From positions 6,702,204 through 6,766,203 of the forward strand of contig NZ_JHEG04000001.1 of the NCBI RefSeq assembly GCF_000760695.4: 64,000 nucleotides of DNA. The letters are read 5' to 3'. The notes beneath the pieces were generated by a model, which did no database searches, had not been told where the DNA came from, and saw only the letters and a program-made list of their open reading frames with translations. Within the stretch, counting starts at the first letter, position 1. Each line of letters begins with the position of its first letter. The stretch is from Tolypothrix bouteillei VB521301. GTDB lineage: Bacteria > Cyanobacteriota > Cyanobacteriia > Cyanobacteriales > Nostocaceae. A program made the translations under genes and the position numbers. This document shows positions 22,829 through 51,561 of the stretch, one piece after another.

Positions 22829-23845
22829 GTGATTAGAGTAGCAATAAATGGTTTTGGGCGCATCGGACGTAACTTTGCGCGTTGCTGGATAGGTAGAGAG
22901 AATAGCAATATTGAGCTAGTTGCTATCAACGATACTTCTGACCCCAGAACCAACGCGCACCTGCTGAAGTATGACACAATGCTAGGGAAGTTAAAGGGTG
23001 TTGACATTAGCGCTGATGACAACTCCATTACCGTTAACGGTAAAACCATTAAGTGTGTATCCGACCGGAACCCAGAAAACTTGCCCTGGAAAGACTGGGA
23101 TATAGATCTCATTATTGAAGCCACAGGCGTATTTACTTCTAGAGAAGGAGCAACTAAGCATCTGAATGCGGGAGCTAAAAAAGTTCTTATCACTGCTCCA
23201 GGAAAGAACGATGATGGCACTTTTGTGGTAGGCGTGAACCACCACGACTACGACCACGAAAAACACCAAATTATCAGCAACGCTAGTTGTACTACAAACT
23301 GTTTGGCTCCTATTGCGAAGGTGTTGCACGAAAAATTCGGCATCATCAAAGGCACCATGACCACTACTCACAGCTATACGGGCGACCAGCGTTTGTTGGA
23401 TGCTTCCCACAGAGATGTCCGACGGGCGCGTGCTGCTGCTCTCAATATTGTGCCTACCTCTACAGGTGCAGCTAAAGCTGTAGCATTAGTATTGCCCGAT
23501 TTAAAGGGCAAGCTGAACGGTGTTGCACTCCGCGTTCCTACCCCTAACGTTTCTATGGTGGATTTCGTCGTACAAGTCGAAAAATCCACTATCACAGAAG
23601 AAGTTAACCAAGCCCTCAAAGAAGCTTCTGAAAATTCACTCAAAGGCATTCTGGCATACAGTGAGGAAGCACTGGTATCTTCTGATTACCAAGGTACTGA
23701 TGAATCTTCGATTGTTGATTCAAGCTTAACCATGGTCTTGGGCGGCGACTTAGTTAAGGTGATGGCTTGGTATGATAACGAATGGGGCTACAGCCAACGC
23801 GTACTCGATCTTGCCGAATTGGTAGGTGAGAAGTGGGTTAAATAG
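22829..23845 (+). CDS. gap2: Glyceraldehyde-3-phosphate dehydrogenase, Calvin-cycle type
   Basis: 338 residues starting at GTG (22829) with a GAGGG ribosome binding site upstream. The Rossmann motif is [10 protein letters not shown] (6-15), the nucleotide-selective loop is INDTSDPRT (33-41), the catalytic Cys154 is in SNASCTTNC and the His182 in [10 protein letters not shown]. The N-terminal [20 protein letters not shown] pattern and the DTSDPRT loop are those of the cyanobacterial Gap2 (dual NADPH/NADH, photosynthetic) rather than glycolytic Gap1. It reduces 1,3-bisphosphoglycerate in the Calvin cycle in the cytoplasm. A terminator follows at 23934-23974. Confidence 0.95.
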
Positions 23846-23917
23846 TTATTTGTTAGTGGTTAGTGGATAGCTGTTGGCAGTGAGTGGTTTGAGCAACTCA
23901 CAACTATCAACTATCAA

Positions 23918-24955
23918 CTAACCAAAATGCTGAAATCCCCGATTAAGTGTGAGAACTCGATCGGGATTTTTTTTGTCTGGCTCGCGTAAAATTACTGTTG
24001 GCTCGCTGGTAATTGTTCCCACGATCGCAGCATTGTTTCCCAGTGTTTGTACAAACTTTTCTGCTACTTCTTTGGGCATACACAATACAAGTTCAAAATC
24101 TTCACCGCCATATAAAGCATATTCTAGGGCTTGTTCTTTGCTTAACCAGGAATGGAATGCTTCGGGTAAGGGAATTTGCGTACTCTCAATAACAGCACCT
24201 GCTTGACTGTTGTGGCAAATTTGGATAACAGCATCTGCTAAGCCATCACTGCTGTCCATTCCGGAAATGGGAAGCGAGGGAGAGAGGGACACAGGGGGGA
24301 ACAGAGAATTTAAGATTTCCCAAAGTATGGGTAGGGCATCAAGTCGCGGTTGGGGACGCTGATGTGCTTTAATTAGGGCTGTGCGATCGCTAGCACTGAG
24401 ATTTTTTCCTAGTTCGGGATGTAGAAGTAATTGCAAGCCAGCAGAGGAAGCACCGTGAACCCCTGTCACAACAATAACATCCCCAACTTTGGCATTGTTG
24501 CGTCGGATAGTTTGCTGTGGCTTCACTTGACCGAAGGCTGCGATCGCTATGGTTGTTGTGGGCGATCGTACTATATCTCCACCAACAATCGGTGTATTGT
24601 ATTTTTGCAAACACTGAGACATACCCTGGTATAATGTATCAACCCAACTGACAGCAACCTCACCAGGTAATCCCAAGCCAACCGTAATCCCCAATGGAGT
24701 TGCTCCCATTGCTGCTATATCGGATAAATTAGCTGCTGCTGCTCGCCAACCAACATCCTCTGGAGATGTCGTAATATCGCTGAAGTGGACGCCGTCAATT
24801 AACACATCAGTCGTTACCACTAAAGATTTTCCCGGTTCAGTAGAAAGCACAGCAGCATCATCTCCAACAATGTCAGGAGGACAATAACGCTGCAATCTTT
24901 TTAAAAGACCTTGTTCGCCAATATCTCGAACTAACGAAGAAAATTCATTATTCAC
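23918..24955 (-). CDS. thiL: Thiamine-monophosphate kinase
   Basis: A 345-residue ATP-dependent kinase that makes thiamine diphosphate from thiamine monophosphate. Family motifs are DIGEQGLLKRL near the start, VGDDAAVL (about 30-37), VVTTDVLIDGVHF, NLSDIAAMGATPLG, VGGDIVRS and the C-terminal SGMDSSDGLADAV and YGGEDFELVLCMP. A short Ser/Pro-rich insertion (PPVSLSPSLP) sits before SGMDSSDG. The start is GTG at 24955 with a weak ribosome binding site. There is no THI-box riboswitch visible in the 270 bases upstream. Its 3' end carries the gap2 terminator on the opposite strand. Confidence 0.93.
   Translation of the reverse strand: MNNEFSSLVRDIGEQGLLKRLQRYCPPDIVGDDAAVLSTEPGKSLVVTTDVLIDGVHFSDITTSPEDVGWRAAAANLSDIAAMGATPLGITVGLGLPGEVAVSWVDTLYQGMSQCLQKYNTPIVGGDIVRSPTTTIAIAAFGQVKPQQTIRRNNAKVGDVIVVTGVHGASSAGLQLLLHPELGKNLSASDRTALIKAHQRPQPRLDALPILWEILNSLFPPVSLSPSLPISGMDSSDGLADAVIQICHNSQAGAVIESTQIPLPEAFHSWLSKEQALEYALYGGEDFELVLCMPKEVAEKFVQTLGNNAAIVGTITSEPTVILREPDKKNPDRVLTLNRGFQHFG
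23934..23974 (+). terminator. Rho-independent terminator of gap2, inside the thiL coding end
   Basis: Arms AATCCCCGAT (23934-23943, one C bulged) and ATCGGGATT (23960-23968), running into an eight-T tract (23967-23974). It lies 89 bases after the gap2 stop and within the last codons of the convergent thiL gene. Confidence 0.8.
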
Positions 24956-36690: not shown

Positions 36691-38067
36691 ATGCGTATAT
36701 TTAGCGCCCTATCTTTCATAGGTCTTCATGTTGGCGTCTATTTAATAGCAGCAACTGTTCAACCTGTTGCTGCTCAGAATATCCCAACTCAAGAGTTACC
36801 ACCAGGATCGTCTACTACGCCTCCAAGGAATATTTTAGAAGAACCAAGACAAATTGAACCTCCTACACCTCCCTCTGGTCCTGAGGTCGATCCATCTCTA
36901 AGCGATGGCGTATCACCTCAATTTACCCGCTACCTCTTAGGACCGGGGGATGGTGTCAACGTTTTAATTCAGCGCCCTTCTGGTAAGTACCGCTTGGGAC
37001 CGGGAGATGGTATCGCTGTTTCAGTTCAACGCTTTCCGGATCTGAGCTTTCAAGCTATCATCAACCCTGAAGGAAACATTGTAGTCCCTTTATTAGGAAC
37101 AGTTTCACTCAGAGGCTTGACCTTGGAACAAGCTCAAGAAAAAATTCGTGTTGGCTTAAATCGATTTGTTGTCGATCCTATTGTGGCATTAGCTCTGACG
37201 ATACAACGTCCGGAGTTAAGCTTTACGGCTCAACTAAACCCAGAAGGCAATATTATCGTGCCACAAGTGGGAACAATATCTTTGCAAGGTTTAACTTTGG
37301 ATGAAGCCCAAGAAAAAATTCGTCTGAGTTCAAGCCGCATCTATGTCGATCCAGTTGTGTCAGTATCCCTAGCCGCACAGCGTCCGGTTCAAATTACCAT
37401 TAGTGGAGAAGTGACACGACCGGGAATTTATTCTATTGCTTCCGGGCTTCCTCGTGTTGGGGATGCTTTAATCTTAGCTGGAGGTTCTTCGATGACGGCA
37501 GACCTGCGACAAGTACAAATACGCAGGCGCTTGGTTGATGGTTCTGTCGCTACACAAAATGTTGACCTATACACTCCCTTGCAAAATGGAGGTTCGGTAC
37601 CAAATTTACGCTTGCAAGATGGCGATGCTATTGTGATTCCCCGTCGGGAAATTGCTGCAGACGATGGTTACGATCGCAACTTGGTGTCTCGTTCAACTTT
37701 AGCAGTACAGCAAATAAGAGTCAGGGTATTAAATTATGCCTCAGGAGGGATCGTCACAATACCACTACCGAATGGGAGTAATTTTTTAGACGCCTTAGCA
37801 GGGGTGAATCTTGATACTGCTAACCTCAGAGGGATCAAACTGTTTCGTTTCGATCCGGAACGCGGTAGAGCTATTGCTCAAACCCTCAATGCCAGAAAAG
37901 CACTTTCAGGCGACTCATCTCAGAATGTACCACTTCAAGATAACGATGTCATCGTAATAGGTCGGAACTTGATAGGTAAAATTACAAATGCTATCAGTCT
38001 GATTACCCGTCCTTTCATCAGTATCAATGCTTTCCTCGACTTCTTTAACGACTTTGGTCGTGATTAA
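36691..38067 (+). CDS. Polysaccharide export protein (Wza-like, SLBB domain)
   Basis: A 458-residue exported protein with a signal peptide (about 1-27, ending PVAA-QN) and a Pro-rich linker (to about 75). The polysaccharide-export core is duplicated: a short YLLGPGDGVNVLIQR unit, then YRLGPGDGIAVSVQR with INPEGNIVVPLLGTVSLRGLTLEQAQEKIR split across the domain, then a second LNPEGNIIVPQVGTISLQGLTLDEAQEKIR copy. SLBB-type segments follow (PVQITISGEVTRPGIY, VGDALILAGG). Wza-type proteins form the outer-membrane channel for exopolysaccharide. The Wzc-like gene follows after 100 bases. Confidence 0.85.
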   Translation: MRIFSALSFIGLHVGVYLIAATVQPVAAQNIPTQELPPGSSTTPPRNILEEPRQIEPPTPPSGPEVDPSLSDGVSPQFTRYLLGPGDGVNVLIQRPSGKYRLGPGDGIAVSVQRFPDLSFQAIINPEGNIVVPLLGTVSLRGLTLEQAQEKIRVGLNRFVVDPIVALALTIQRPELSFTAQLNPEGNIIVPQVGTISLQGLTLDEAQEKIRLSSSRIYVDPVVSVSLAAQRPVQITISGEVTRPGIYSIASGLPRVGDALILAGGSSMTADLRQVQIRRRLVDGSVATQNVDLYTPLQNGGSVPNLRLQDGDAIVIPRREIAADDGYDRNLVSRSTLAVQQIRVRVLNYASGGIVTIPLPNGSNFLDALAGVNLDTANLRGIKLFRFDPERGRAIAQTLNARKALSGDSSQNVPLQDNDVIVIGRNLIGKITNAISLITRPFISINAFLDFFNDFGRD

Positions 38068-38167
38068 GTGTTTGGCATAACATAGTAGGGTGAGGAGCTA
38101 ACAGTGACCGGAGATCGGACCTCACATCTAAAATTTCAAGCTCGACCTGTTTTTCTTAAATGTTGCT

Positions 38168-40330
38168 ATGACTCCACCGATTGTTAAACGCTACCTCATC
38201 GCCTTTGATAAATATAAATGGATTGGTATTGCCAGTTTTGGTTTGGTTGTAGTGGGTTCAACGGTGGTGGCTTTGCAACCAGAACCAGCACCTACCTATA
38301 TGGCAAATGGTGCGTTGACCTACGCTCGTCCGCCAGTTTCTTTTTCGACAACTGGTACTGAAATTAACCTGCAAGGGCAAGAACTCAGTGAGGAAATTTT
38401 ACTGTCAGATCAGATCGTTGAATCTGTCGCTACAAAATTAAACATTAGTCCCAAGAAAATCGCGACAAGTGTTAGCCTCAAACTACCTGAAAGAGCAAAG
38501 GAAGCAGCAGATGCACAACAACCAACGACAATTGAATTGAGATACAGAGATAGCGATCGCCAGCGAGCAAGGGACACCTTAGCAGAATTGATGGAGGCAA
38601 TGATCCGTTTAAGCGGTGAGATCAATACAAGGCGATTAAACGCAATTATTACAAAAGTTAACGAACGCATACCAGCAGCGAAAAGGGATTTACAAGTTGC
38701 AGAGCGCAAACTAGAACTTTACGATCGCAGAGAAAGACCGGCAATATTAGCAGCAGAAAATGGCAGTTTGCTCAACGCCATTACTAGCAGTCAAATTCAA
38801 CAGAGGCAAATTCAACTTACACTTTCAGGAATTGAGGCTCAAATTCGGAGCATTCAAGAAAAATTGGGTTTGAATGTCAACCAAGCTTACGTCTCTTCTG
38901 CTCTGAGTGCAGACCCGATTATTGCCAACTTGCGAACGCAAATCTATCAAACGGAATCTCAAATAGAAGTTTACAGGAAAGATCTCCGACCCGACCACCC
39001 AACCATGATTCAGCTGCAGCGTCAGAAAGAAGCTTACGAAAACCTATTACGCCAACGTGGTGGAGAGGTGATCGGGGGTCCTGATGGCGCAGCACCTTTA
39101 CAAGGAACGGTATCCATTCGTTCTCGAAGCAACCTAGACCCTGCAAGGCAAAACCTGGCAAATCAAATGGTGGCTTTGCAAACTCAACGGGAAACGCTGC
39201 GACAGCAATTAATAGATTTGGGAAAGGATGAGACACGACTGCGGCGAGAGTATGCTTTGATACCAAACAAGCAATTGGAGCGATCGCGCTTAGAACAGGA
39301 AGTCGGACTGAAAAAAGCCGTGTACGACCAAATGCAGGTGAAGTTGACCGACGCCAAAACAGCAGAAGCGGAAACGGTGAGTAGCCTGGGTATAGCCAGA
39401 CCAGCTGTAGCACTTCCTGTAGTGACGCCACCTAAGAATCCAGCCATTACCTTAGGTGTGGGTAGTTTACTGGGACTAGTCGTTGGTGGTGGCGTGATAT
39501 TTTTGCTAGGAGCACTCGAAGGAACTTTCAAAACCAAGGAAGATATCCGCGATACCCTCAAACAACGCGAAGTTCCCCTCTTGGGCGAATTGCCTTTGAT
39601 GCCAGTTGCCGATCTACCCCCCGGAGCATTGCCAGTTGTCTTATCTCCAGAATCTCCCTACCTGGAATTTTATGAGAAGTTCCGCAGCAATCTGCGCCGG
39701 ATTGGTGGTAGAACCTTAAAGGTCGTGTTAATCGCAAGCACCACTAGCAGTGAAGGTAAGACTGCGAGCGCTTATAACCTTGGAGTCGCCTCCGCCCTAG
39801 CTGGAAAACGCACTTTGATTGTTGAAACTGATTTGCGATCGCCCTCTCGTGCATCATCCTTGAAGGTCAGCCCCGACCCCGACGCCATTGTCGATCCATT
39901 ACGCTACTACACTAGTTTAAGCGAATGTATCCGCCTAGTACCTGATATAGAAAATTTATACATCTTGCCCAGTCCCGGTCCCGTGCGTCAAGCTGCTGCT
40001 GTTCTCGAATCCAGCGAATTTAAGCGGTTAATGGAAGACGTGCGCGAACGCTTTGATTTTGTTATATTAGACACCCATTCTATGAGCTTATCGAACGATG
40101 CTCTGTTAATTCAACCTTATAGTGATGGCATAGTACTCGTAGCACGACCCAATTATACACAGGAAAATATGCTAACTGAAGCTATTGACCAATTAACAGA
40201 ATCAGAGCTACCACTGTTGGGAACAATTGTCAATGGGGCAGACATCGTTGTCAACGTACCTCCTCCTGCTCTACAACAACCACCAAACACTCCCCCTGAA
40301 GAAGAACTTTCAGTCGGAGCAAGAAGATAA
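38168..40330 (+). CDS. Wzc/GumC-like polysaccharide co-polymerase with BY-kinase-like domain
   Basis: A 720-residue inner-membrane protein: transmembrane helix (about 16-36), Wzz-type periplasmic domain with long coiled coils (about 140-400), second transmembrane helix (about 425-450, LGVGSLLGLVVGGGVIFLLG) and a cytoplasmic P-loop domain. The Walker A reads SEGKT, A' is LIVETDLRSP (Asp of VDADLR replaced by Glu), and Walker B is VILDTHSM. No Tyr cluster is present at the C-terminus (ends SVGARR), so classical autophosphorylation looks doubtful. With the Wza-like gene just upstream it should form the export complex of the exosortase B-linked glycan. Confidence 0.85.
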   Translation: MTPPIVKRYLIAFDKYKWIGIASFGLVVVGSTVVALQPEPAPTYMANGALTYARPPVSFSTTGTEINLQGQELSEEILLSDQIVESVATKLNISPKKIATSVSLKLPERAKEAADAQQPTTIELRYRDSDRQRARDTLAELMEAMIRLSGEINTRRLNAIITKVNERIPAAKRDLQVAERKLELYDRRERPAILAAENGSLLNAITSSQIQQRQIQLTLSGIEAQIRSIQEKLGLNVNQAYVSSALSADPIIANLRTQIYQTESQIEVYRKDLRPDHPTMIQLQRQKEAYENLLRQRGGEVIGGPDGAAPLQGTVSIRSRSNLDPARQNLANQMVALQTQRETLRQQLIDLGKDETRLRREYALIPNKQLERSRLEQEVGLKKAVYDQMQVKLTDAKTAEAETVSSLGIARPAVALPVVTPPKNPAITLGVGSLLGLVVGGGVIFLLGALEGTFKTKEDIRDTLKQREVPLLGELPLMPVADLPPGALPVVLSPESPYLEFYEKFRSNLRRIGGRTLKVVLIASTTSSEGKTASAYNLGVASALAGKRTLIVETDLRSPSRASSLKVSPDPDAIVDPLRYYTSLSECIRLVPDIENLYILPSPGPVRQAAAVLESSEFKRLMEDVRERFDFVILDTHSMSLSNDALLIQPYSDGIVLVARPNYTQENMLTEAIDQLTESELPLLGTIVNGADIVVNVPPPALQQPPNTPPEEELSVGARR

Positions 40331-41001: not shown

Positions 41002-43182
41002 ATGAACACAACAATTAAGACTGGGGGCACAACTAATATTTTTGAAAACCGCCGTTCTCTGGCTGCAAAAATCACAAGTACAGAGATAGATTTTCAATCT
41101 TTAGAATCTGTGATACACAACCTTGAAGAAAATCGCCAGCAGTGGTTAACATCGTCTCATGTTTCAAAGACCGTTCAAACTTTGCCAGATAACAACTTAG
41201 CAGAACTACAGCAAAGTATTAGGCATGAATTAGAAAAACTGCATAAAATTAAAGAACTTTATTGTCGAGAAACAATAAAAATAGGCGTTATCGGACGACC
41301 AAAACAAGGAAAAAGTCGATTATTACAAAGTTTAACAGGGTTAACAAGTGCTGAAATTCCAGATGGATACAGACAGCATTGTACGGGAGTTTATTGTAGT
41401 ATCCACAACAACTTTTTGGAGGAAACTTATGCAGAAGTATATTTTTACTCCGAAAATTCGTTTCTTACAGAAGTTATTTATCCCTACTATGAAAAGTTGT
41501 CTTTAGGGCTCAAGCCCAAGACAATAGATGAATTTGCAGCCAAAACTCTACCTTTATTACCAAGCGTTTTTTCCTCAGAAGTAGACCAGGAAACTATGTA
41601 TTTGCGCTTGGTAAGGTATCACATCAATGTAGAAAAGTACCGTCATCTCCTCGGACAACCTTCTCCCCGTCGCATTTCTAAAAATGAGATTCCAGAATAT
41701 ATCGCACAAGAAACAGCTTACGGACAGCAAAGCTTGTTTAACTACTTAGCTGTTAGAGAAGCAAAAATTTATTGTAAATTTCCCAACACTGATGTTGGAA
41801 AATTTGTCTTTGTGGATCTGCCCGGTCTTGGGAATACTGGTATTTGCAACGAGCATTCTCTTATCAAAAAATTAGTACAAGAAGTTGATGCTATTTTGTT
41901 TGTACGAATGCCAAAGTCAATGGGAGATATCTGGAAAGAGGTAGATATTAGTTTATATGAAAAAACACTTGCTGCAATAGCTGACTTACCATCTCATGTA
42001 TGGTCTCTTATGGTAATCAATCGTACAGAAGCTCATTCACCCTATCGAGATAACTTAAAAACTTGTCAAGATTTAGTATTAGAAATTACCAATAAAAGTA
42101 GAAATATTTCTGAATACATAATAGCTAACTGTGCAAACAGCCAAGAAAGTTACAAACTTTTAGAACGTTCCCTAAATTCCATAGAGGAAAAAAATCTTGA
42201 ATTAGGTTACAAAGACATCTTGTTGAGCCAGCAAAAATTAGCTATAGTGCAAAGCAAAGTTAATGCTGAGTTAGATAAAGTGGTAAAAGCTCTAGATTTA
42301 GCAACTCAAGATGCCCCGGAATCTGCATTATTTGAGATACAGTTCAAAGAAGTTGTAAGGGATTTGACCAATGGTCTTGAGAAGCTGCTTCAAGAACTGC
42401 GAAAAAACCGAGAGTCCATTGATTTGGAATTCAAAAAGCAAATTGAAACGGCTTTACAAGCGTATCGAAATGATACGGGAATTCCTTCAATTCAAGAAAT
42501 AGAACACCTGTATAGTCTTGAAAAAAACTATCATGTGGTTTATGAGAAGTATTTACACGAGATTCGCGCTCGTTTATTACAACATCTTTTATTATTAGAT
42601 GAAGGGTTAAAGCGATCGCTCAACAAAGTCAAATCACAAGTAGCAAAAGTACTTATTGACAAGGGACGTTTGGGGAGCTTGACACAAGAACGAGGAACTG
42701 AATTTCTTCATGCCGTTGCCACTCAAATACCACCCGAACTGATTCCTGGGGTACCAAGCCAGCTAAAATACGGATTTAAAACACTTGCTGAATATCAGCT
42801 TTCTTATCGAGGATTCATACAGCATCGCCTCCGTAAGTCCCTTGATGGGTTGACTCCGAATGAACCAGCAACACTCAAGCTCACAAAATCGACTTCCGCC
42901 GAACAAGTCCTCTTAAATCTCAAGATTGCTTGTGCTGAAACTCTCAGTAAATGTGAGAGTACTTTGAAGCAGTTGCTCAGCGAACCAAATCAAGCCGCTT
43001 ATGCAATTGTAGAAGAGTTTTTTGACACCATCCTTCGCAGGACAAATATAGAACGTGAGTGGCGCATCTTTTTACAAGAAGACAGAGAACAAAGCCAACA
43101 AGAAATTCTCCAGGAAAGCGATCGTCTTTTGACATCACGCGATGTACTTGATTTAGCTCAACCCACAGCAGTTACAAATTAA
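41002..43182 (+). CDS. Dynamin-like large GTPase, paralogue A
   Basis: A 726-residue protein with a helical N-terminus (about 1-90), a GTPase domain and a long helical stalk-like region (about 380-700). G1 is GRPKQGKS (98-105), G2 the Thr in QHCTGV (118), G3 DLPGLG (262-267) and G4 NRTE (330-333, in place of NKxD). The large insert between G2 and G3 is unusual. No transmembrane helix or clear lipid-binding paddle is seen. It is colinear with the protein at 44630-46804 along its whole length. Dynamin-like proteins remodel membranes or act in defence; the function here is unknown. ATG at 41002. Confidence 0.75.
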   Translation: MNTTIKTGGTTNIFENRRSLAAKITSTEIDFQSLESVIHNLEENRQQWLTSSHVSKTVQTLPDNNLAELQQSIRHELEKLHKIKELYCRETIKIGVIGRPKQGKSRLLQSLTGLTSAEIPDGYRQHCTGVYCSIHNNFLEETYAEVYFYSENSFLTEVIYPYYEKLSLGLKPKTIDEFAAKTLPLLPSVFSSEVDQETMYLRLVRYHINVEKYRHLLGQPSPRRISKNEIPEYIAQETAYGQQSLFNYLAVREAKIYCKFPNTDVGKFVFVDLPGLGNTGICNEHSLIKKLVQEVDAILFVRMPKSMGDIWKEVDISLYEKTLAAIADLPSHVWSLMVINRTEAHSPYRDNLKTCQDLVLEITNKSRNISEYIIANCANSQESYKLLERSLNSIEEKNLELGYKDILLSQQKLAIVQSKVNAELDKVVKALDLATQDAPESALFEIQFKEVVRDLTNGLEKLLQELRKNRESIDLEFKKQIETALQAYRNDTGIPSIQEIEHLYSLEKNYHVVYEKYLHEIRARLLQHLLLLDEGLKRSLNKVKSQVAKVLIDKGRLGSLTQERGTEFLHAVATQIPPELIPGVPSQLKYGFKTLAEYQLSYRGFIQHRLRKSLDGLTPNEPATLKLTKSTSAEQVLLNLKIACAETLSKCESTLKQLLSEPNQAAYAIVEEFFDTILRRTNIEREWRIFLQEDREQSQQEILQESDRLLTSRDVLDLAQPTAVTN

Positions 43183-43215
43183 ATAAAGCAGCACCAGAAA
43201 TGGTTATTGGTCTGT

Positions 43216-43245
43216 AGTTGAGATGCGCGTGCTTCTCAACTACAA
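43216..43245 (+). terminator. Perfect hairpin after the first dynamin-like gene
   Basis: Arms GTAGTTGAGA and TCTCAACTAC with a 10-base loop, 33 bases after the stop, followed by AACGTCTTTT. Terminator-like but with a weak T-tract. Confidence 0.45.
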
Positions 43246-43389
43246 CGTCTTTTAGCCCAGCAATTAAACTTCTTTTTTAAAGATTTTATATTAAAACTTT
43301 CTCGCTGGCTTCTTCAAAGAAAAAATGACGAACTTAGGCGCATATTACTTGAAGAAATAGGATATTACCAATCTTCAGACAAAGTTTAA
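43222..43389 (+). pseudogene. Possible gene remnant (C-terminal fragment without start)
   Basis: An open frame of 55 codons after a stop, without ATG, GTG or TTG. The conceptual product has protein-like composition (QRLLAQQL, LSRWLLQRKNDELRRILLEE) and ends in a normal stop. It matches neither dynamin paralogue. It may be a decayed tail of a lost gene, or chance. A 10-base perfect inverted repeat (GTAGTTGAGA/TCTCAACTAC, 43216-43245) overlaps its beginning and could be the 3' end of the upstream gene. Confidence 0.25.
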
Positions 43390-43440
43390 TCTTTATTAAC
43401 GTGCGCTCGTGTAAAAACTTCAATCGCATTAAAATGCCGA

Positions 43441-43466
43441 AAGCCCGATCTATAGTGACCGGGCTT
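43441..43466. terminator. AAGCCCG/CGGGCTT hairpin between convergent genes
   Basis: Arms AAGCCCG (43441-43447) and CGGGCTT (43460-43466), with 12 bases between. Located between the plus-strand GTPase gene and the minus-strand oxidoreductase gene. No T-run, so low confidence. Confidence 0.35.
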
Positions 43467-43605
43467 GTAATAATGATAGTTGGGCTAAATGCCCTCGGCT
43501 AATTATAGGCTTAGACATAAGTGATTACTCTGATAATATCTACCACTGCCCATTCGGTAGTTCCGGAAAATTCTCTATCCAAAGTAGTAATTTCCGCAAG
43601 GAAGC

Positions 43606-44406
43606 CTAAAGCTGGGCAAAAAGCCCTTCCCAGTCGATCGCAGAAGGTCTCGATCCTTTGTTAATGATTTCAAACGCTTTCCCTTCAGCGTGAGGGTTTT
43701 GAATGCACTCCACACAGGCTGCAGCAACATCAATACGGCTGGTTTGCCCTGTTAATGTGTCTCCCGTTCCCAAAACAACACCATATTTGCCTGCTGTTGT
43801 TGCTTTTAACAGAGTATTGAGGTCATAAGAAGTATATGGTCCGTCGATCAAACGTCCGGGACGGATTATAGTATAGGGCAATCCAGAATTGATAATAGCT
43901 TCTTCACCTTGAAGCTTGGCATCCAATACACCAAAAGCATTGAGGACGCTGTAAGGAAATTGAGATTTGTGGAGAACCCCACAGGAAGACACGAAGACAA
44001 AACGTTTCAAATTGCGGGGTGCTGCTGCTACTAAATGGCTGACCCCTCGTGCATCTACTTGTAAGGGGCTATTTCTTGCCCTTGTTTCGCGATCGCTACT
44101 GTTAAGCAATAGCTGAGCCCACTCAATTAAGTTAGGTTTCGGCTCAAAATCCCATCTTTCCGAAGGAAAGGCAGTTGTTCCAGTACAGCAGATGATATAG
44201 GCAACATCCCGTACTGCTGTGGGGAGAGTACTTGGATCGCGTATGTCACCAATGGCAATGTCTACTTTGCGCTCAAACATTTTCTCCGCTTTTGTAGAAT
44301 TGCGTGTCAAAACGCGAACTTTCAAGCCTTTCTCTAATAATTTGCCTACTGTTAACTGACCTACCCCACCCGTAGCGCCAGCAACCAGTACTAAATCTTC
44401 TGTCAC
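43606..44406 (-). CDS. NAD(P)-binding atypical SDR family protein (NmrA/Ycf39-like)
   Basis: 266 residues from a GTG at 44406, giving MTEDLVLVAGATGGVGQL at the N-terminus. The open frame continues 213 bases upstream, but that stretch encodes no plausible domain and contains palindromic repeats. The nucleotide motif GATGGVG (10-16) and VRVLTRN, GDIRDP, VSSCGVL and YTIIRPGRL segments are those of atypical short-chain dehydrogenases, which bind NAD(P) and often act as sensors or assembly helpers. It lies on the opposite strand between the two GTPase paralogues, so it may be an unrelated gene inserted there. Confidence 0.85.
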   Translation of the reverse strand: MTEDLVLVAGATGGVGQLTVGKLLEKGLKVRVLTRNSTKAEKMFERKVDIAIGDIRDPSTLPTAVRDVAYIICCTGTTAFPSERWDFEPKPNLIEWAQLLLNSSDRETRARNSPLQVDARGVSHLVAAAPRNLKRFVFVSSCGVLHKSQFPYSVLNAFGVLDAKLQGEEAIINSGLPYTIIRPGRLIDGPYTSYDLNTLLKATTAGKYGVVLGTGDTLTGQTSRIDVAAACVECIQNPHAEGKAFEIINKGSRPSAIDWEGLFAQL

Positions 44407-44629
44407 GTTAAAAGAATTTTTAACTACATATAATATAGAGTCTATCGCAAATAACAATACCTTTGCCAATTCCTGAAAACTCTTGCAGACTGGAAGTCTG
44501 TGGCTGCACAAACGAAGCCCACCTACGTGGGCTAGAATCCTTATAGCCCTTGCCTGGTATTCCCTTTTGCCTCCTGCCTCCTGCCCTCTGCCTTTCTCGA
44601 TAAAACAACTGATATACACAAGCTTTTAC
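44407..44629. other. Divergent promoter region with two short palindromes
   Basis: Holds CAGACT-GGA-AGTCTG (44486-44500) and AGCCCAC-CTAC-GTGGGCT (44516-44533). The latter are the style of dispersed cyanobacterial repeats rather than known operators. Confidence 0.45.
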
Positions 44630-46804
44630 ATGAACGCAACAAATCGGGCTGAAAAAATTGTCAGCATTATTGAAAAACGACGTCCCCTAGCCCAAAAAAT
44701 TGAACGGGTGGAGGCTAATTTAAAATCTCTCGCCTCTGCACTTCGTTCTCTTGAAAACCATCGCAATGAATTGCTAGCACGAGTGGAAGACGCAAATGCG
44801 ATCGGGCGTTTGAAAGAAATTGATTTGGGGAGGCTGCAACTCAGCATCACTATTGAATTAGAAGTCTTAAACAAGCTAAAAGTGCGTTTTTGCCGAGACA
44901 CTCTCAACATAGGAGTTGTGGGACGAGCCAGACAAGGAAAAAGTCGCCTGCTACAAAGCTTAACAGGGCTGACGGCTGCTGAAATTCCCGATGGAGACAG
45001 GCAGCATTGTACGGGTGTCCGCAGCATCATTCATCATAATCCCAATGTAGAAACTTATGGTGAAGTCTGGTTTCACTCCGAGCGATCGTTTTTAGATGAG
45101 GTTATTGCTCCCTATTACGAAAAGCTATACTTGGGTGCAAAACCGATCGCAATTGCTGAATTTGCCGCTCATCCTCTACCTCCACTCCCTCACAATCTTC
45201 CCGGATATGCGGAACCGGGGGCGATGTACGAACATTTGAGCCGATACCATACCCATTTCGATAAGTACCGCCATCTTTTACAAGAACCTTCACCCCGCCT
45301 CATTTCTCGTAACGAAATTCGCGAGTATGTCGCTCAAGATACCCCTGATGGTCAAAGAGTTTTTTTCAACTATTTAGCAGTGCGGGAAGTAAAAATTGTT
45401 TGTCAGTTTCCTAACAAAGATGTCGGACAAATTGCCTTGGTCGATATGCCTGGATTGGGAGATACAGGTGTTGGGGATGAAGAACGACTGATGAAAACTT
45501 TGGGACAAGAAGTTGATGGTATCCTCTTTGTGCGAATGCCAAAGTCATCTGGTGACTACTGGGCCGATGTCGATGTGCGTTTGTACGATACAGCACGGGC
45601 TTCCCTCGTAGATTTACCTGTTGAGTTATGGTCTTTCATGATTCTCAATCGGACAACTGCTGAGTCAAAAAATGGGGATAATTACAACAACTGTCAGGAT
45701 TTAGCAGATACATTAATGGAAAAACATCTGCAGGTGGTTCGTTGTTTGACTGCTAACTGTGCCAATATAGATGCAGCAAGTGAAGTGTTGGATGAAATAC
45801 TCAATTATTTAGCCGATAAGATTACTTCATTAGATGAGCAATACGCCTCTTCCTCCCAAAACAGGTTAATGCAACTCCAAAATGGGGCGATCGCAGAATT
45901 AGAAAAAGCTCGCAAAGCTCTGGGTGAAGCAGTACAACAAGACAATTGGTTCCCCTTGTTCTTACAGCTTTTTGACGGTGTGTGGAACGATGTAACCAGT
46001 GGTTTGGAAAAACTGCTGAGACATCTCAAACAACAAAGAAACTCTCAAGACATTCATTTTAAACAGCAAGTAGAAGCAGCTGTTGAAGCTTGTCGTACAG
46101 ACACTGCTATCCCTAGTTTAGAAGAGATTGAGAAAAGACGCGATCGCGTTGGTGGCTATCCCAACGCCTACTACGAATACTTAAACGAACTTCGCGCCTA
46201 CCTGTCACAACATTTCTTAGCCCTAGATAGCGGATTGAAGCAATTGCTTTTTAAAGTTAAATCTCAAGTAGCAGAAGTTTTGATAGAGCGGGGACGATTG
46301 GGGGGACTGACAGAAACCAGAGGTTATGAATTTTTGAATGAAATCGCCAAAGAGTTACCCGAATCTTTACCAAAATTAAAGTTAGGATTTGAAATCCTTG
46401 CAGAATTTGATATTTCCTATCGTGGGCTCATCCAGCACCGCATCCGCAAACATTTAGATGGTTTGACACCAGACGAAACCTCACTGCAATTGTCAAAATC
46501 TCCCTCTGCAAAAGAAATCTTCACCAACCTGAAAACCTTGCATGCAGAAGCTTTATACAATTGTGAAACAGCTTTAGAAGATCTGTTATGCGAACCCAGC
46601 CTAGCAGCATTTGCCATAGTAGAAGAGTTTGTCGATCGCGTACTGCGTGCTGAGGGAGCAAAGACAGAATGGCGCATTTTTTTAGAAGAAATCAGAGCCA
46701 TTGTTTGGCATGATGAATTTGAACAGCTTGGCGATCGCACTCGATTGCGCCGGGAGTGGCTTCACTCAGTAGACAAGGCGATGATAGCCCATCATATTTT
46801 GTAA
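44630..46804 (+). CDS. Dynamin-like large GTPase, paralogue B
   Basis: 724 residues from the ATG at 44630; the upstream in-frame TTG at 44483 would add a leader lying in repeats. It parallels paralogue A: G1 GRARQGKS (98-105), G2 Thr in QHCTGV, G3 DMPGLG, G4 NRTT (again not NKxD), then a long helical region with FKQQVEAAVEACRTDT and LDSGLKQLLFKVKSQVAEVLIERGRLGGLT. The first residues (NRAEKIVSIIEKRRPLAQKIERVEANL) predict a coiled coil. Two paralogues in one locus often form heteromers in bacterial dynamins. It is the first gene of a four-gene run with a GTPase, tail-anchored protein and TPR protein. Confidence 0.75.
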   Translation: MNATNRAEKIVSIIEKRRPLAQKIERVEANLKSLASALRSLENHRNELLARVEDANAIGRLKEIDLGRLQLSITIELEVLNKLKVRFCRDTLNIGVVGRARQGKSRLLQSLTGLTAAEIPDGDRQHCTGVRSIIHHNPNVETYGEVWFHSERSFLDEVIAPYYEKLYLGAKPIAIAEFAAHPLPPLPHNLPGYAEPGAMYEHLSRYHTHFDKYRHLLQEPSPRLISRNEIREYVAQDTPDGQRVFFNYLAVREVKIVCQFPNKDVGQIALVDMPGLGDTGVGDEERLMKTLGQEVDGILFVRMPKSSGDYWADVDVRLYDTARASLVDLPVELWSFMILNRTTAESKNGDNYNNCQDLADTLMEKHLQVVRCLTANCANIDAASEVLDEILNYLADKITSLDEQYASSSQNRLMQLQNGAIAELEKARKALGEAVQQDNWFPLFLQLFDGVWNDVTSGLEKLLRHLKQQRNSQDIHFKQQVEAAVEACRTDTAIPSLEEIEKRRDRVGGYPNAYYEYLNELRAYLSQHFLALDSGLKQLLFKVKSQVAEVLIERGRLGGLTETRGYEFLNEIAKELPESLPKLKLGFEILAEFDISYRGLIQHRIRKHLDGLTPDETSLQLSKSPSAKEIFTNLKTLHAEALYNCETALEDLLCEPSLAAFAIVEEFVDRVLRAEGAKTEWRIFLEEIRAIVWHDEFEQLGDRTRLRREWLHSVDKAMIAHHIL

Positions 46805-46890
46805 GAAATCAGATACTCGACTTTTTTGAGAAGTTAGGTATCTTAATAGATTTTTTGCAATTTTTGCAATCACAATGTCAGGAAATATCA

Positions 46891-47862
46891 ATGGACGAAC
46901 TGAAAATCACAATGTTGGGACCGAGTGGCGTAGGTAAAACCACTCTTTTAACTGCTCTCTACGAACAATTTGAAAATACGATTGGTAAAACAGATTTACA
47001 ACTAACACCTGACGAAGAAAGTTCGGCAATTTTGCAAGAACGTTTAATGGAACTCAAAAGTCTGCTGAATGATTTTGAACCAAGAGGAGGAGTCAGAGGA
47101 ACAGAAGGAGAACCCGAACATCTTCGGTCTTTTGTGTTTGGTTTGGGAAAAAAAGGTAAAAAGCCCTCCTTAGAACTTCACTTTCAGGATTATCCAGGAG
47201 GTTACCATGCTGCCAAAGCCACTCCTGAAAAAAAGCAATTTGTTAAGAAAATGCTGACAGAATGTGTTGCCGTATTAATTGCTATAGATGCACCTGCTTT
47301 AATGGAACAAAAAGGAAAGTGGCACGAGCAAATTAATAGAGTGCAACAAATGACTGACTTATTTAAAATAGCTTATCAAGATTTAGAATCACCAAGATTG
47401 GTTATTTTTGCACCTGTAAAATGTGAGAAGTATTTAAAAGATGAAAAAACGGCGCAAGAGCTATTAATACGTATTAAAGAAGGATATGCAAAATTAATAG
47501 ATTTGTTTAATGCATCAGCATTACTAACCAAAGTAGCAGTTGTTGTCACCCCCGTACAAACCGTGGGAAGCGTCGTTTTTTCGAGAGTAGAGATAGAGAG
47601 TAACATACCTCATTTTCTCTTTCGGAAAACCAGTCATGATGCAGCCTATAGCCCAACCGATAGCGAGCAACCTTTGCGGTATCTCTTGAGATTTTTATTA
47701 AAACTTCATTTAGATACTCGGAATTGGGGTTTGTTTAATTTTCTTCGCGATTTATTGGGCAGAGATTATTACCTGAAAGAAGCAATTCGTCAGTTTGCCA
47801 GTGAATGTAAAACTAACAATGGATTTGCCATTTTACAAGGAGAAGATTTATTAAAAGTTTAA
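46891..47862 (+). CDS. Small P-loop GTPase (TRAFAC-like)
   Basis: 323 residues from the ATG at 46891, preceded by CAGGAAATATCA; the frame extends upstream into the end of the GTPase B gene, which is not needed. G1 is GPSGVGKTT (10-18) right at the N-terminus; a D-x-x-G is present in FQDYPGGYHA; the base-recognition motif is not canonical (FAPVKCEKY). A region GTEGEPEHLRSF may be the switch. Its position 86 bases after the large GTPase suggests co-expression and functional linkage. It resembles GTPases reported in bacterial conflict gene neighbourhoods, but the assignment to a named subfamily is uncertain. Confidence 0.7.
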   Translation: MDELKITMLGPSGVGKTTLLTALYEQFENTIGKTDLQLTPDEESSAILQERLMELKSLLNDFEPRGGVRGTEGEPEHLRSFVFGLGKKGKKPSLELHFQDYPGGYHAAKATPEKKQFVKKMLTECVAVLIAIDAPALMEQKGKWHEQINRVQQMTDLFKIAYQDLESPRLVIFAPVKCEKYLKDEKTAQELLIRIKEGYAKLIDLFNASALLTKVAVVVTPVQTVGSVVFSRVEIESNIPHFLFRKTSHDAAYSPTDSEQPLRYLLRFLLKLHLDTRNWGLFNFLRDLLGRDYYLKEAIRQFASECKTNNGFAILQGEDLLKV

Positions 47863-47895
47863 CGAACCAAACTAAAATCTAAAATGGTATAACTT

Positions 47896-48654
47896 ATGAA
47901 GATTTACGTACAAAGTCGCGGTTTTTCACAAGACTATGATTACTGCTGGTTGCCAGAAGTACCACCTATTTTGAGACAATACCGAATTAGCGATGTTATT
48001 CAGAGTGAATCACCCTCTGTTGTTTTAGGGCGCTATGACAATAAATTGCTATTACTAGTGACCGGTCTTGAGGCTAGTGAAAGGGTAGATTTTCAGGGAA
48101 GGAGAATTCGTAATTCTGTAGCATGGGTTGGTGAAGATAGTGAAGCCAACGAGCAAAAGTTACGTGCGATCGCAGCTTATTCCTTACGCGGATTGTTGGA
48201 TACCGACGTTGACAAAGCCGTACAATTTGGCGGTGAGTTTGGTTTTGAAGTTGCTTTTGATACCATCAGCCACTTAAAGATCGATGAAGTCAGGCATTTT
48301 GATGCCAAATTGGAAAGTAAAATTGGCAGAAATTCCGAGTATTTACGGAACGATATAGCTTATGAGATAGAAGAAAGGCGTTTGCCAAAAGGTAACGGCT
48401 TCAATAACATTCCCCTTGTGGTCGTTACTGGTATCAAATCGGCAAATGCTTTAAAACAAGCAAATGTTTGGCGTGGGTTATCTAATTTAGTACAGGGGGA
48501 GGGATGGCTTGAACCTTATAAAAAAAGTTACCCGTCAGAGCCAGCGCTTGCAAGCAGCAACCAAACGCCTCAAAAGAACAATTCGTTAGTTTTTACGCTC
48601 TTGTTAATAGCTGTCATTCCAGTTGCTATGATTCTATTTCTGTTTATCCGTTAG
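47896..48654 (+). CDS. Unknown protein with C-terminal membrane anchor
   Basis: A 252-residue protein I do not recognise. The N-terminal domain has MKIYVQSRGFSQDYDY, VLGRYDNKLLLLVTGLEA and RRIRNSVAWVG, a mixed alpha/beta pattern. After a polar linker (PSEPALASSNQTPQKNN) a single hydrophobic helix (about 229-250, VFTLLLIAVIPVAMILFLFI) ends almost at the C-terminus, so it is likely tail-anchored with the body in the cytoplasm. It begins 33 bases after the GTPase stop, so the two are probably co-transcribed. It could recruit the GTPases to a membrane; this is inference. Confidence 0.65.
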   Translation: MKIYVQSRGFSQDYDYCWLPEVPPILRQYRISDVIQSESPSVVLGRYDNKLLLLVTGLEASERVDFQGRRIRNSVAWVGEDSEANEQKLRAIAAYSLRGLLDTDVDKAVQFGGEFGFEVAFDTISHLKIDEVRHFDAKLESKIGRNSEYLRNDIAYEIEERRLPKGNGFNNIPLVVVTGIKSANALKQANVWRGLSNLVQGEGWLEPYKKSYPSEPALASSNQTPQKNNSLVFTLLLIAVIPVAMILFLFIR

Positions 48655-48728
48655 TGAATTCATCAAACTGCAAATAAGATAGAAAGTGTGGTTGTCTGTA
48701 ACGTATGTAACGGTTTGGAGAATTGGCG

Positions 48729-49595
48729 ATGAGTCAAGCGCTAAGGACAGGGGCAGATATGTCTTCACTTGTCTCTGAAGACTACAAATACTGGTATCAG
48801 CAGGGTAAGCAGCTCGACAAACAAGAACGTTATGAAGAAGCGATCGTGTATTACGATAAAGCTCTGGCAGCTAGCCCGGATAACTACTGGGTTTGGTATG
48901 ACAGAGGCAGCGCTTTACGGGAATTAGGTCAGTACGTGGCGGCTATTGTCAGTTACGATCGAGCACTATCTATTCGTTCTGATGATTACTGGGGATGGTA
49001 TAACCGGGGCTGTATTGCACTGGAGGATTTGGAATGGTTTGAGGATGCGATCGCAAATTTTGATAAGGCACTTGAAATCCGTCCCCGTGACTTCTGGGCA
49101 TGGTTTCGTCGAGCCGAAGCCCTACGACATTTAGATCGCTTTGAAGAAGCAGTTTTCAATTACGAGAAAGCTTTGTCGAGACGTTCCAACGATTACTGGT
49201 CATGGTTGCGACGGGGGGATGCTTTGAGACATTTAAGTCGCTACGAAGAAGCACTTAAAAGTTATGATGAAGCACAATATTTTCGCCCTGATGAATTTTG
49301 GGTTTATTACAAGCAAGGAGATACTCTTAGATATCTAGGTAGGTATAAAGAAGCGCTTGAGAAATATCAAAAAGCAACAGAATTCAACTCAGATGATGAG
49401 TACTCCTTCTACAACACGGCTTGTTGTGCAGCCCGAGTAGGCAACGAAGCGTTAGCAATTGAAAGCCTAGAAACAGCTTTAAAAATCAATCCAAATTTTC
49501 AATTGTTTGTTAAAACTGACCCTGACTTGGAACTGCTCCAAGATAACAGACAGGTAGAAGATTTGCTAAGCAAAATAGCTGAGTGGAATACTTAA
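48729..49595 (+). CDS. TPR-repeat protein with Trp-rich repeats
   Basis: 288 residues from the ATG at 48729, with TTTGGAGAA just upstream; a TTG two codons earlier is also in frame. About seven tetratricopeptide repeats of 34 residues span most of the protein. Repeats share an unusual (D/N)(Y/F)W-x-W-x-x-RG pattern at the start of helix A (DNYWVWYDRG, DDYWGWYNRG, RDFWAWFRRA, NDYWSWLRRG, DEFWVYYKQG). TPR arrays mediate protein contact; this one may scaffold the GTPases encoded just upstream. It lies 74 bases after the tail-anchored protein gene and is followed by a terminator-like hairpin. Confidence 0.85.
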   Translation: MSQALRTGADMSSLVSEDYKYWYQQGKQLDKQERYEEAIVYYDKALAASPDNYWVWYDRGSALRELGQYVAAIVSYDRALSIRSDDYWGWYNRGCIALEDLEWFEDAIANFDKALEIRPRDFWAWFRRAEALRHLDRFEEAVFNYEKALSRRSNDYWSWLRRGDALRHLSRYEEALKSYDEAQYFRPDEFWVYYKQGDTLRYLGRYKEALEKYQKATEFNSDDEYSFYNTACCAARVGNEALAIESLETALKINPNFQLFVKTDPDLELLQDNRQVEDLLSKIAEWNT

Positions 49596-49648: not shown

Positions 49649-49673
49649 CCCCTGGATAAATCACAGGGGTTTT
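49649..49673 (+). terminator. Terminator at the end of the GTPase/TPR gene run
   Basis: Arms CCCCTG (49649-49654) and CAGGGG (49664-49669) followed by TTTT (49670-49673), 54 bases after the TPR stop. Confidence 0.6.
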
Positions 49674-50361: not shown

Positions 50362-51561
50362 TTACCGCTTAGACCATATATCACTTGCTATTGGAGAACT
50401 GTTGTTGATTCTTGAAGAGTCAGGAGAAAGTAACATTAAAGCCATGCCAAATCCGTTTTTTAAACGAGGTTCTAAGGGTGTATGTAAGCTATCAACCACT
50501 ATAAAGTTACTGTCTGATATACATTTATTAATGCCAGTTGAAGTATATTTACGAGTCAAAAGCAAACGAATCGTATCTCGAGCTTCAAAATTTATAACTG
50601 AGCGATCTGGCAGCATCACATCAATTTTATTTCCAGTTAAGTTGCGATACAGTATTTTTATCAGAATAGCTCTATCTGCCTCTATATAACCATCAAAGGA
50701 GACACTGTTTAGGTCAATATGTAAATCGGTATTTTGAAGTAATGCACTAGTGACAAATTCTCTAAAAGACTTAGCGCTCTCGTACTCTTTAGTTGCCTTT
50801 TGAGCAGCTTCTTCATTTAATTCTTCAGTTGTCGCTACTTCTATAAGAAATCTATCATCAGGTCGCATGATTTGAGAAAGAGTTTGTAGAAGCTCTGTAT
50901 CTCGTTGAAAGTTTGCTAATGTATTGCCAAGTAATGAAAATATAATAGGAGTATCTTTTAGAATATCATCAAAGAGTTTCCGCAATTCACTGACATTTCT
51001 TTCAATTGAAAAGTCGATTTGAATGGGGAACACATGGTTTCCTTTTAATTTTGTTTCTTGGATTGCTTGTTGAACGCCCAGTCTCAACATTTCCGAACTC
51101 ATATCAACGGGAAAGTAAATTAGGTCGGGGTTGGAATTAAGTAATAAACTTAAAATGCTTTTATCTTTTTCTCCCGTACCAACGCCCAAACTAACGTAAT
51201 GATATTTCCGATCTCCTATTCTATTGGCATAGAGTTGAGACCATCGATATCTAAATGACTCTATACTCTCTTTCATGACAAGGTAAAATCTATCATGGCA
51301 AGCGTTATTCCAAGCTATTGTTGGACCTATCCCCCAGTACGAAAAACCAGATAAAATTTCTTTACCATCACCTGTTTCAGAAAATTCTCCTCTCAATTCC
51401 TGTGTCAGTTCTGCAAGCTTCTTTGACTGATCTTCTCCTATAAAACACAGAGTCCATCCCAAGCCCGGTTCATTGATGGAATTTTCTAATAGCTTCATGA
51501 AATTTAAAGATTCCATATTAAGCCTCAAATAGTCAACAATATGTACTTCGGTAATATACAT
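50362..51561 (-). CDS. EgtD-like SAM-dependent methyltransferase
   Basis: A 399-residue protein. The central part resembles the histidine-specific methyltransferase family (Methyltransf_33, EgtD of ergothioneine synthesis): SAM-binding VSLGVGTGEKDKSIL, YFPVDMSSEMLRLG, and FSLLGNTLANFQRDTELL. The N-terminal about 90 residues are longer than in EgtD and begin MYITEVHIVDYLRL. The target may be histidine, another amino acid or a peptide; no EgtB is present, so classical ergothioneine synthesis is not supported here. A membrane protein gene follows. ATG at 51561 with no strong ribosome binding site. Confidence 0.65.
   Translation of the reverse strand: MYITEVHIVDYLRLNMESLNFMKLLENSINEPGLGWTLCFIGEDQSKKLAELTQELRGEFSETGDGKEILSGFSYWGIGPTIAWNNACHDRFYLVMKESIESFRYRWSQLYANRIGDRKYHYVSLGVGTGEKDKSILSLLLNSNPDLIYFPVDMSSEMLRLGVQQAIQETKLKGNHVFPIQIDFSIERNVSELRKLFDDILKDTPIIFSLLGNTLANFQRDTELLQTLSQIMRPDDRFLIEVATTEELNEEAAQKATKEYESAKSFREFVTSALLQNTDLHIDLNSVSFDGYIEADRAILIKILYRNLTGNKIDVMLPDRSVINFEARDTIRLLLTRKYTSTGINKCISDSNFIVVDSLHTPLEPRLKNGFGMALMLLSPDSSRINNSSPIASDIWSKR

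Follow-up and report, generated by a model that had tools for sequence, protein, structure and literature searches.

To our knowledge, partners or triggers have been identified for only a few bacterial dynamins. A 2018 review states, for the dynamins it treats, that their physiological function is not clarified, and its section on the HSR1 clade of cyanobacterial dynamin-like proteins (DLPs) describes a dynamin-like gene followed by a gene for a GTP-binding protein, and no third gene (PMC5827413). The SynDLP clade is reported to have a KGK-domain neighbour (PMC10104851), and DynA slows phage release and seems to seal the membrane (PMC8844932). Small GTPases are encoded beside proteins of the longin/roadblock fold group in the MglA-MglB and conservon (Cvn) systems (PMC3521125), and DO-GTPases occur in conflict systems with GAP1-N1/GAP1-N2 (Kaur et al., 2020, PMC7159879). 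Here, we analyzed a window of 64,000 nucleotides (contig NZ_JHEG04000001.1, positions 6,702,204 to 6,766,203, forward strand) from the 9.95 Mb, two-contig genome of the cyanobacterium Tolypothrix bouteillei VB521301. On its plus strand, DLP2, a 724-amino-acid dynamin-like GTPase (44630..46804), is followed by DOG, a 323-amino-acid small GTPase of the DO-GTPase2 kind (46891..47862), and by TA, a tail-anchored protein of 252 amino acids with one predicted transmembrane segment (47896..48654). Our results show that these three genes are a genuine mobile cassette. No joint description of a DLP, a DO-GTPase and a longin-like anchored protein was found in the open-licence literature, as judged by titles and the starts of abstracts.

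A sequence-only reading of the window had named the conserved co-occurrence of four or five neighbouring genes as a check; it held for DLP2, DOG and TA and failed for the two genes flanking them, DLP1 and a TPR protein gene, treated below. Among 217 genomes of the family (56 genera) searched for TA, it was present in 35 genomes and 22 genera. The 36 stretches fetched on this basis cover all 42 matching places minus the window's own and a second place in G095 with the same score, and DLP, DOG and TA lie together on one strand in 33 of them; the three incomplete loci are L054, where TA runs off the contig, L063, which consists of broken pieces, and L065, at a contig edge. Because these loci had been selected through TA, each protein alignment was also searched on its own against 386 genomes sampled evenly across the phylum. 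Raw matches at E <= 0.001 were obtained in 27 (TA), 42 (DOG) and 45 (DLP) genomes. From these we dropped the TA rows of G265 and G497 (<22 bits), one on a 6.4 kb contig (G057:C201, locus L065) and, in G170 and G297, the second of two rows that belong to a single gene, the DOG rows under 73 bits, except three fragments that were joined to their genes (G077, G442, G483), and the DLP rows under 300 bits. Strong TA and strong DOG then occurred in the identical 25 of 386 genomes, all with a strong DLP. Were genomes independent, which is not the case, the chance probability of this overlap would be ~7e-40. Five more genomes have a strong DLP without strong DOG or TA (G190, G209, G502, G524, G537), and in one of them, G502, DOG is matched weakly (28 bits) on a different contig from the DLP. 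At the TA loci of this sample, DOG is directly upstream of TA in 26/26 and DLP upstream of DOG in 26/26, with gaps between the matched stretches of -1 to 77 (DOG-TA) and 1 to 402 (DLP-DOG).

The same association was recovered from the DLP side. Named genomes were scanned with the DLP alignment (best 80 of at least 128 confirmed loci), counting DLP rows of at least 450 amino acids and any DOG or TA encoded no more than 5 kb downstream in the same orientation. Of 78 DLP rows, 50 have DOG and TA, four DOG only, 17 neither, and seven are at a contig end; among the DOG-only rows, L081 stops 1.4 kb after its DLP, and at L117 DOG and TA lie 4.6-5.6 kb downstream, past the 5 kb limit for TA. A contig scan for close relatives with TA alone found nothing. 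Over the cassettes of both sets, which have 13 DLP sequences in common, the median distance between DLP and DOG is 23 bases, and 69/83 cassettes have a gap of at most 100. The pairwise distances of the three proteins correlate across 71 single-copy cassettes, near-copies included (r 0.71-0.81). After removing loci with a DLP at least 90% identical to a kept one, the 51 remaining cassettes still gave r 0.73 (DLP-DOG), 0.63 (DLP-TA) and 0.77 (DOG-TA), whereas none of 999 permutations exceeded 0.37, and nearest neighbours agree for 27 to 33 of the 51. Therefore, the block has largely been inherited together.

Two families of small genes lie mostly directly downstream of TA: one at L049:10494-10952 and 13 other loci (~136-289 amino acids), the other at L056:10528-10947 and seven others (138-155 amino acids). 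They occur at cassettes whose DOG has ~420-427 amino acids, and some of the loci are the same genome fetched twice; the L049 member, when scanned, matched no Pfam family.

DLP2 matches Dynamin_N at 28.8 bits (cut-off 27), and its upstream paralogue DLP1, 50% identical to it, stays under the cut-off at 23.2 bits. As the sequence-only reading had noted, G1 occupies residues 98-105 in both proteins (GRPKQGKS, GRARQGKS; nucleotides 44921-44944 in DLP2), and the non-canonical G4, NRTE or NRTT, starts at residue 340 in both. In an alignment of 71 DLP sequences including these two (A5), the G1 Gly and Gly-Lys-Ser, Thr128 (the G2 Thr) and the G3 DxPG (DMPG at residues 272-275 of DLP2) are invariant in 71/71; the G4 Asn (Asn340 in DLP2) is likewise invariant, with no conserved Asp after it, and the non-canonical G4 is therefore a family trait. 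With these motifs and the Dynamin_N match, the G domain of DLP2 is of the dynamin type. Its predicted model (predicted local distance difference test, pLDDT, 91.0; predicted template modelling score, pTM, 0.63) comprises N-terminal helices, a G domain at ~92-375 and a helical bundle at 380-721, and its fold comparison places BDLP, SynDLP, mitofusin and IniA among the top matches. The predicted fold is thus that of BDLP and mitofusins, with a helical bundle formed from N- and C-terminal helices. A single-sequence search of solved structures with DLP2 found no dynamin, and the A5 profile gave weak matches only, to IRGB10 and Fzo1 (E 1.6e-4 to 1.5e-3). In contrast to BDLP of Nostoc punctiforme, SynDLP, the mitofusins and Fzo1, the cassette DLP has a G4 Asn without a conserved Asp and is genetically tied to DOG and TA. 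LeoABC and DynA are likewise bacterial DLPs, for which we know of no DOG or TA partner, and the DLPs of the window give only partial, weak matches to LeoBC (E 1.9e-4 for DLP1; 0.034 for DLP2) or JAB models of PADLOC. DLP2 also lacks the NALL motif that the 2018 review finds in nearly all of its proteins (PMC5827413).

The guess that the small GTPase belongs to the DO-GTPases proved right. DOG matches DO-GTPase2 (PF19993) at 32.1 bits (cut-off 27) and is the only protein of its genome to do so, and 15/20 members of the DOG alignment (A2), the window's included, match this family at E <= 0.001. Its motifs are a G1 of the form GxxxxGKT, a G3 DxxG and, where NKxD would be expected, PxKCExY followed by TPVQT. 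The residue after DxxG is Gly in the window's DOG and Glu in 7/20 A2 members, a position that may differ from that of the Walker B Glu of Kaur et al. (2020). A search of solved structures returned P-loop matches and weak partial matches to FtsY, septin and small GTPases, and PADLOC gave PtuA, over the P-loop part only. By its description, the HSR1 clade of the 2018 review may overlap in part with the cassette, so that some of the DLP-DOG pair may have been noticed before (PMC5827413); MMR_HSR1 matches just 1/20 A2 members at E <= 0.001. Six loci have two DOG copies (L043, L045, L092, L110, L143, L145), and at L043 and L045 the cassette is enlarged to DLP-DOG-TA-TA-TA-DOG. Separately, distant DO-GTPase-like matches occur in cyanobacterial genomes as pairs one to two kb apart (G170:C2:97-480 and 2162-2611; G311:C70:21739-22182 and 23691-24113; G151:C3:602796-603224 and 604067-604453), possibly true double-GTPase systems.

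At E <= 0.1, TA has no match in Pfam, NCBIfam or PADLOC, and its sequence gave no convincing match to solved structures. Its AlphaFold2 model (pLDDT 90.6) consists of a longin-like domain (1-110), a second alpha/beta lobe (121-196), a disordered linker (214-228) and a transmembrane helix (residues 229-251; 48580..48648, plus strand). The longin fold has the element order b1-b2-a1-b3-b4-b5-a2-a3, with which the elements of the model agree (E2-7 E17-19 H24-28 E41-47 E50-64 E70-80 H83-97 H101-108). TA is thus weakly predicted to combine a longin topology with a C-terminal anchor. Among the 25 listed of the 141 Pfam families obtained at E <= 5 for the 83 members of the TA alignment (A4), longin, roadblock, TagF and DENN were not found, which carries little weight either way. 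A small GTPase next to a protein of this fold group parallels MglA-MglB and Cvn (PMC3521125), but the predicted TA differs from these in its longin rather than roadblock element order, its membrane anchor, its second lobe and its dynamin partner. A hydrophobic segment follows the domain in 70/81 distinct TA reading frames from the fetched loci and the window; of the 11 frames without it, four come from L113, L118, L123 and L127, and some others are fragments. Beyond the anchor the tails vary, with WD40 repeats in 11 of the 120 homologues listed (193 found), peptidoglycan-binding domains in 2/83 members and Ig-like repeats in L087; in the window, nothing follows the anchor.

Although most cassette loci found are cyanobacterial, DLP, DOG and TA also occur together in two Nonomuraea (L119, L126), Acrocarpospora (L140), a Thiotrichaceae (L110) and Halochromatium (L143). 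A Synergistota record has a DLP and two DOG (L145), and a Bacteroidota record has DOG before the DLP on a contig that stops 1.7 kb later (L144). The trio of L092, labelled Bacillota, may be mis-binned, its DLP being placed among cyanobacterial ones. A DLP alone is found in a Chloroflexales (L108) and a Desulfohalobiaceae (L115). DLP2 matches ten records of a plasmid collection, one of them chromosome-sized (Nonomuraea gerenzanensis, 11.85 Mb); plasmid3 of Nostoc carneum carries the trio and a fourth small gene, and a Streptomyces aurantiacus plasmid carries DLP and DOG, with no TA detected. Plasmid pANACY.04 of Anabaena cylindrica PCC 7122 encodes a short DLP of 302 amino acids with no partners detected (L156:5007-5915), perhaps a decayed cassette; in another strain of this species, FACHB-243, homologues of DOG and TA are present. 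On a plasmid of Stanieria cyanosphaera PCC 7437 (L155), an NB-ARC gene lies near the DLP with four small genes between them, the next gene, of 389 amino acids, resembles DOG only weakly (12.8 bits), and a TA was not detected.

Indications of what the cassette does come from fusions and neighbours. A domain scan covered ten proteins, mostly chosen for unusual length (P0323 for a listed domain), of which seven are DLPs. AAA_35 stands N-terminal of the dynamin domain in L080, L113, L123 and L127, as does HEPN_Swt1 in L080, L127 and P0323, and the DLP of L141, which has no partners, carries an FHA domain after the dynamin domain. Further AAA_35 proteins are encoded beside the cassettes of L080, L113 and L127, with a vWA match over the cut-off in the first and under it in the other two. 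At L126 (Nonomuraea), the DLP is preceded by two CHAT-TPR genes, of which the second overlaps it by four bases; at L045, a cassette of the Calothrix type, one CHAT-TPR gene comes after the cassette. We take AAA_35 to be STAND-like and CHAT to be caspase-like. Conflict systems typically contain HEPN RNases, STAND-type NTPases and caspase-type peptidases (PMC7159879; PMC3710099), and the HEPN/AAA_35 fusions and CHAT neighbours therefore hint at conflict or envelope defence. At L119, L140, L108 and L143, the other neighbours scanned encode ordinary proteins (transporters, a glycosyltransferase) or proteins of unknown kind, and an S41 peptidase is encoded at L071. Together with the patchy distribution and the plasmid copies, these fusions and neighbours suggest a defence role.

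Our leading reading, held tentatively and with somewhat less than even confidence, is that DLP2, DOG and TA work as a single GTPase device at the membrane and are inherited en bloc, and that a TA-DOG-DLP chain acts on the attacked envelope. The block is conserved, and its DLP and DOG belong to the dynamin and DO-GTPase2 families. TA would be anchored by its C-terminal helix and offer the longin-like domain to the cytosol; this domain would bind and control DOG at the membrane, as an exchange factor, a GTPase-activating protein or a docking platform. Loaded DOG would recruit or release the mitofusin/BDLP-like DLP, and the GTP-driven DLP polymer would reshape, fuse or seal the cytoplasmic membrane upon envelope attack; alternatively, it would break the membrane as an abortive response. 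We infer the TA-DOG and DOG-DLP contacts, this order of action and the trigger, a phage or another attack on the envelope. Guarding of the membrane, by sealing as DynA seems to do or by sacrifice of the cell, fits best, and plain membrane upkeep is possible. More doubtfully, the cassette could be a mobile trafficking-like module, made of a longin-like anchored receptor, a switch GTPase and a mitofusin-like dynamin. Bacteria would then have a version of their own of the Rab/longin/dynamin logic by which eukaryotic membranes fuse, and would use it in defence.

Several searches gave no support for a defence role. We compared 95 of the 213 genes within 3 kb of a cassette with all 79 genes at least 6 kb away, all of 120-900 amino acids, at the cassettes of L067-L146 minus three high-GC loci (L119, L126, L140), using PADLOC models at 1e-10, often several per gene. 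There were 47 families near and 30 far, with no visible enrichment near the cassette at the sampled loci; among the 25 listed of each, the near set includes PD-T4-6, MzaA, mad2/mad6 and candidate (PDC) models, and the far set PsyrA, PsyrT, DpdF, ShosA, mad2/mad3 and a phospholipase effector. In addition, DOG had no match in phage records, and the DLP alignment no relative among IMG/VR viral contigs. Of the membrane-remodelling or defence system that the sequence-only reading had envisaged, the membrane module is retained and the defence part is only suggested. Its statement that no named system can be assigned agrees with Pfam, NCBIfam and PADLOC, which named none for the window proteins; in PADLOC, no cassette protein has a full-length match to a system.

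These results leave room for ordinary upkeep, in which GTPase-controlled membrane repair or remodelling of thylakoid or septum would involve no conflict and the patchy spread would reflect an accessory stress function. The predicted fold of DLP2, shared with BDLP, SynDLP and mitofusin, is consistent with this, as are the PADLOC results for TA (none), DOG (P-loop only) and the DLPs (weak and partial) and the lack of enrichment; internal membrane dynamics have also been proposed for cyanobacterial dynamins (PMC5827413). However, a housekeeping role sits poorly with a cassette that is spread over several phyla and plasmids, occurs in just 25/386 genomes of the phylum sample, and has HEPN_Swt1 and AAA_35 fusions and CHAT neighbours in some relatives. 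We consider it somewhat unlikely.

It is less probable still that the cassette is a divergent DO-GTPase conflict system sensu Kaur et al. (2020), with DOG as a threshold switch, TA in the place of GAP1 and the DLP as an effector that would kill or wall off the infected cell. Like those systems, the cassette has a protein over the DO-GTPase2 cut-off, two such copies at six loci, a membrane component, variable, effector-like fused modules and the form of a mobile multi-gene block. Unlike them, it has a dynamin and a longin-like TA, and GAP1-N2 (PF20013) was not found in the T. bouteillei genome, the Corynebacterium glutamicum control being positive; GAP1 families were also not among the matches of the TA relatives at E <= 0.001. 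Moreover, the published systems are described as nearly absent from cyanobacteria, and the word "dynamin" is missing from the main text of that study (PMC7159879).

A larger unit, in which a DLP1-DLP2 heterodimer would work with DOG, TA and a TPR scaffold, is very improbable. DLP1 (726 amino acids; 41002..43182, plus strand) and the TPR protein (288 amino acids, with TPR families in Pfam; 48729..49595, plus strand) lie outside the conserved unit, although the genes from DLP1 through the TPR gene span only 8.6 kb and tandem dynamin pairs are known in bacteria (PMC6104087; Tandem A/B, PMC5827413). The gene of an NAD-binding protein on the opposite strand separates DLP1 from DLP2, and no DLP1 homologue was seen in the 19.5 kb around the cassette of a same-genus relative (L031). 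In a quick tree of 115 DLP rows (102 different), in which several long non-cyanobacterial branches are unreliable in detail, DLP1 does not join DLP2 and pairs with the solo DLP of a Brasilonema (L133; SH-like approximate likelihood ratio test, SH-aLRT, 100), within an eight-member clade that includes cassette DLPs as well, on a long end branch (0.53). By its tree position, DLP1 is an orphan of another cassette lineage rather than the sister of DLP2. Among loci L031-L146, L031 is the only one where a close homologue of the TPR protein adjoins the cassette (590 bits). Two Laspinema loci come next (L077, 217 bits; L071, 216 bits), where a long TPR protein is encoded ~4 kb upstream of the cassette and on the other strand; all further listed matches are below 66 bits. 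The heterodimer and the TPR scaffold were therefore rejected as conserved parts, and DLP1-DLP2 does not correspond to a Tandem A/B pair. The multi-GTPase membrane module with an anchor put forward by the sequence-only reading stands for three genes, without the dynamin pair and the TPR scaffold it had included. Lastly, a chance neighbourhood without functional link has a negligible probability and is refuted for DLP, DOG and TA by the constant gene order (26/26 loci) and the 25-genome coincidence, although the function of the cassette is putative.

The same tree bears on solo DLPs. The solo state needs at least 11 changes, 8 of them forced by well-supported branches, so repeated loss (or gain) of the partners seems to have taken place. 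At four solo loci of Calothrix, Plectonema and Richelia (L121, L122, L124, L125), a gene of 231-237 amino acids lies upstream on the opposite strand in 4/4, and its family is also present at six other loci; genes of 474-486 and 339 amino acids are near the DLP in three of the four.

Within the window, the open reading frames were confirmed at the places reported earlier, as were the gaps of 86, 33 and 74 bases between DLP2, DOG, TA and the adjacent, co-directional TPR gene, given start codons at 46891, 47896 and 48729. This spacing suggests that the four genes share a single transcript. The hairpin terminator claimed 3' of the TPR gene fared less well: the structure at 49649..49669 (plus strand; -11.2 kcal/mol, z -1.1, tail of four T) is at best a possible weak terminator, absent from the output of the terminator scan, and the region has 7 terminator-like sites against a chance mean of 5.6, i.e., no excess. 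Upstream of DLP1 (36691-40330) are genes for proteins of 458 and 720 amino acids, the latter matching AAA_31, which we take to be polysaccharide export and Wzc-like chain-length proteins. On the minus strand, 50362-51561 encodes a 399-amino-acid methyltransferase (Methyltransf_33, 60 bits) with a weak likeness to EgtD.

Among bacterial dynamins, a mitofusin-like protein so tightly linked to a switch GTPase and a membrane anchor offers a regulatory chain that is open to experiment. If the phage-defence role were true, the cassette would be a system without a name in the 2023 PADLOC library. If TA is truly related to longins, one bacterial operon would join three pieces of eukaryotic membrane traffic, which would bear on the origin of that machinery.

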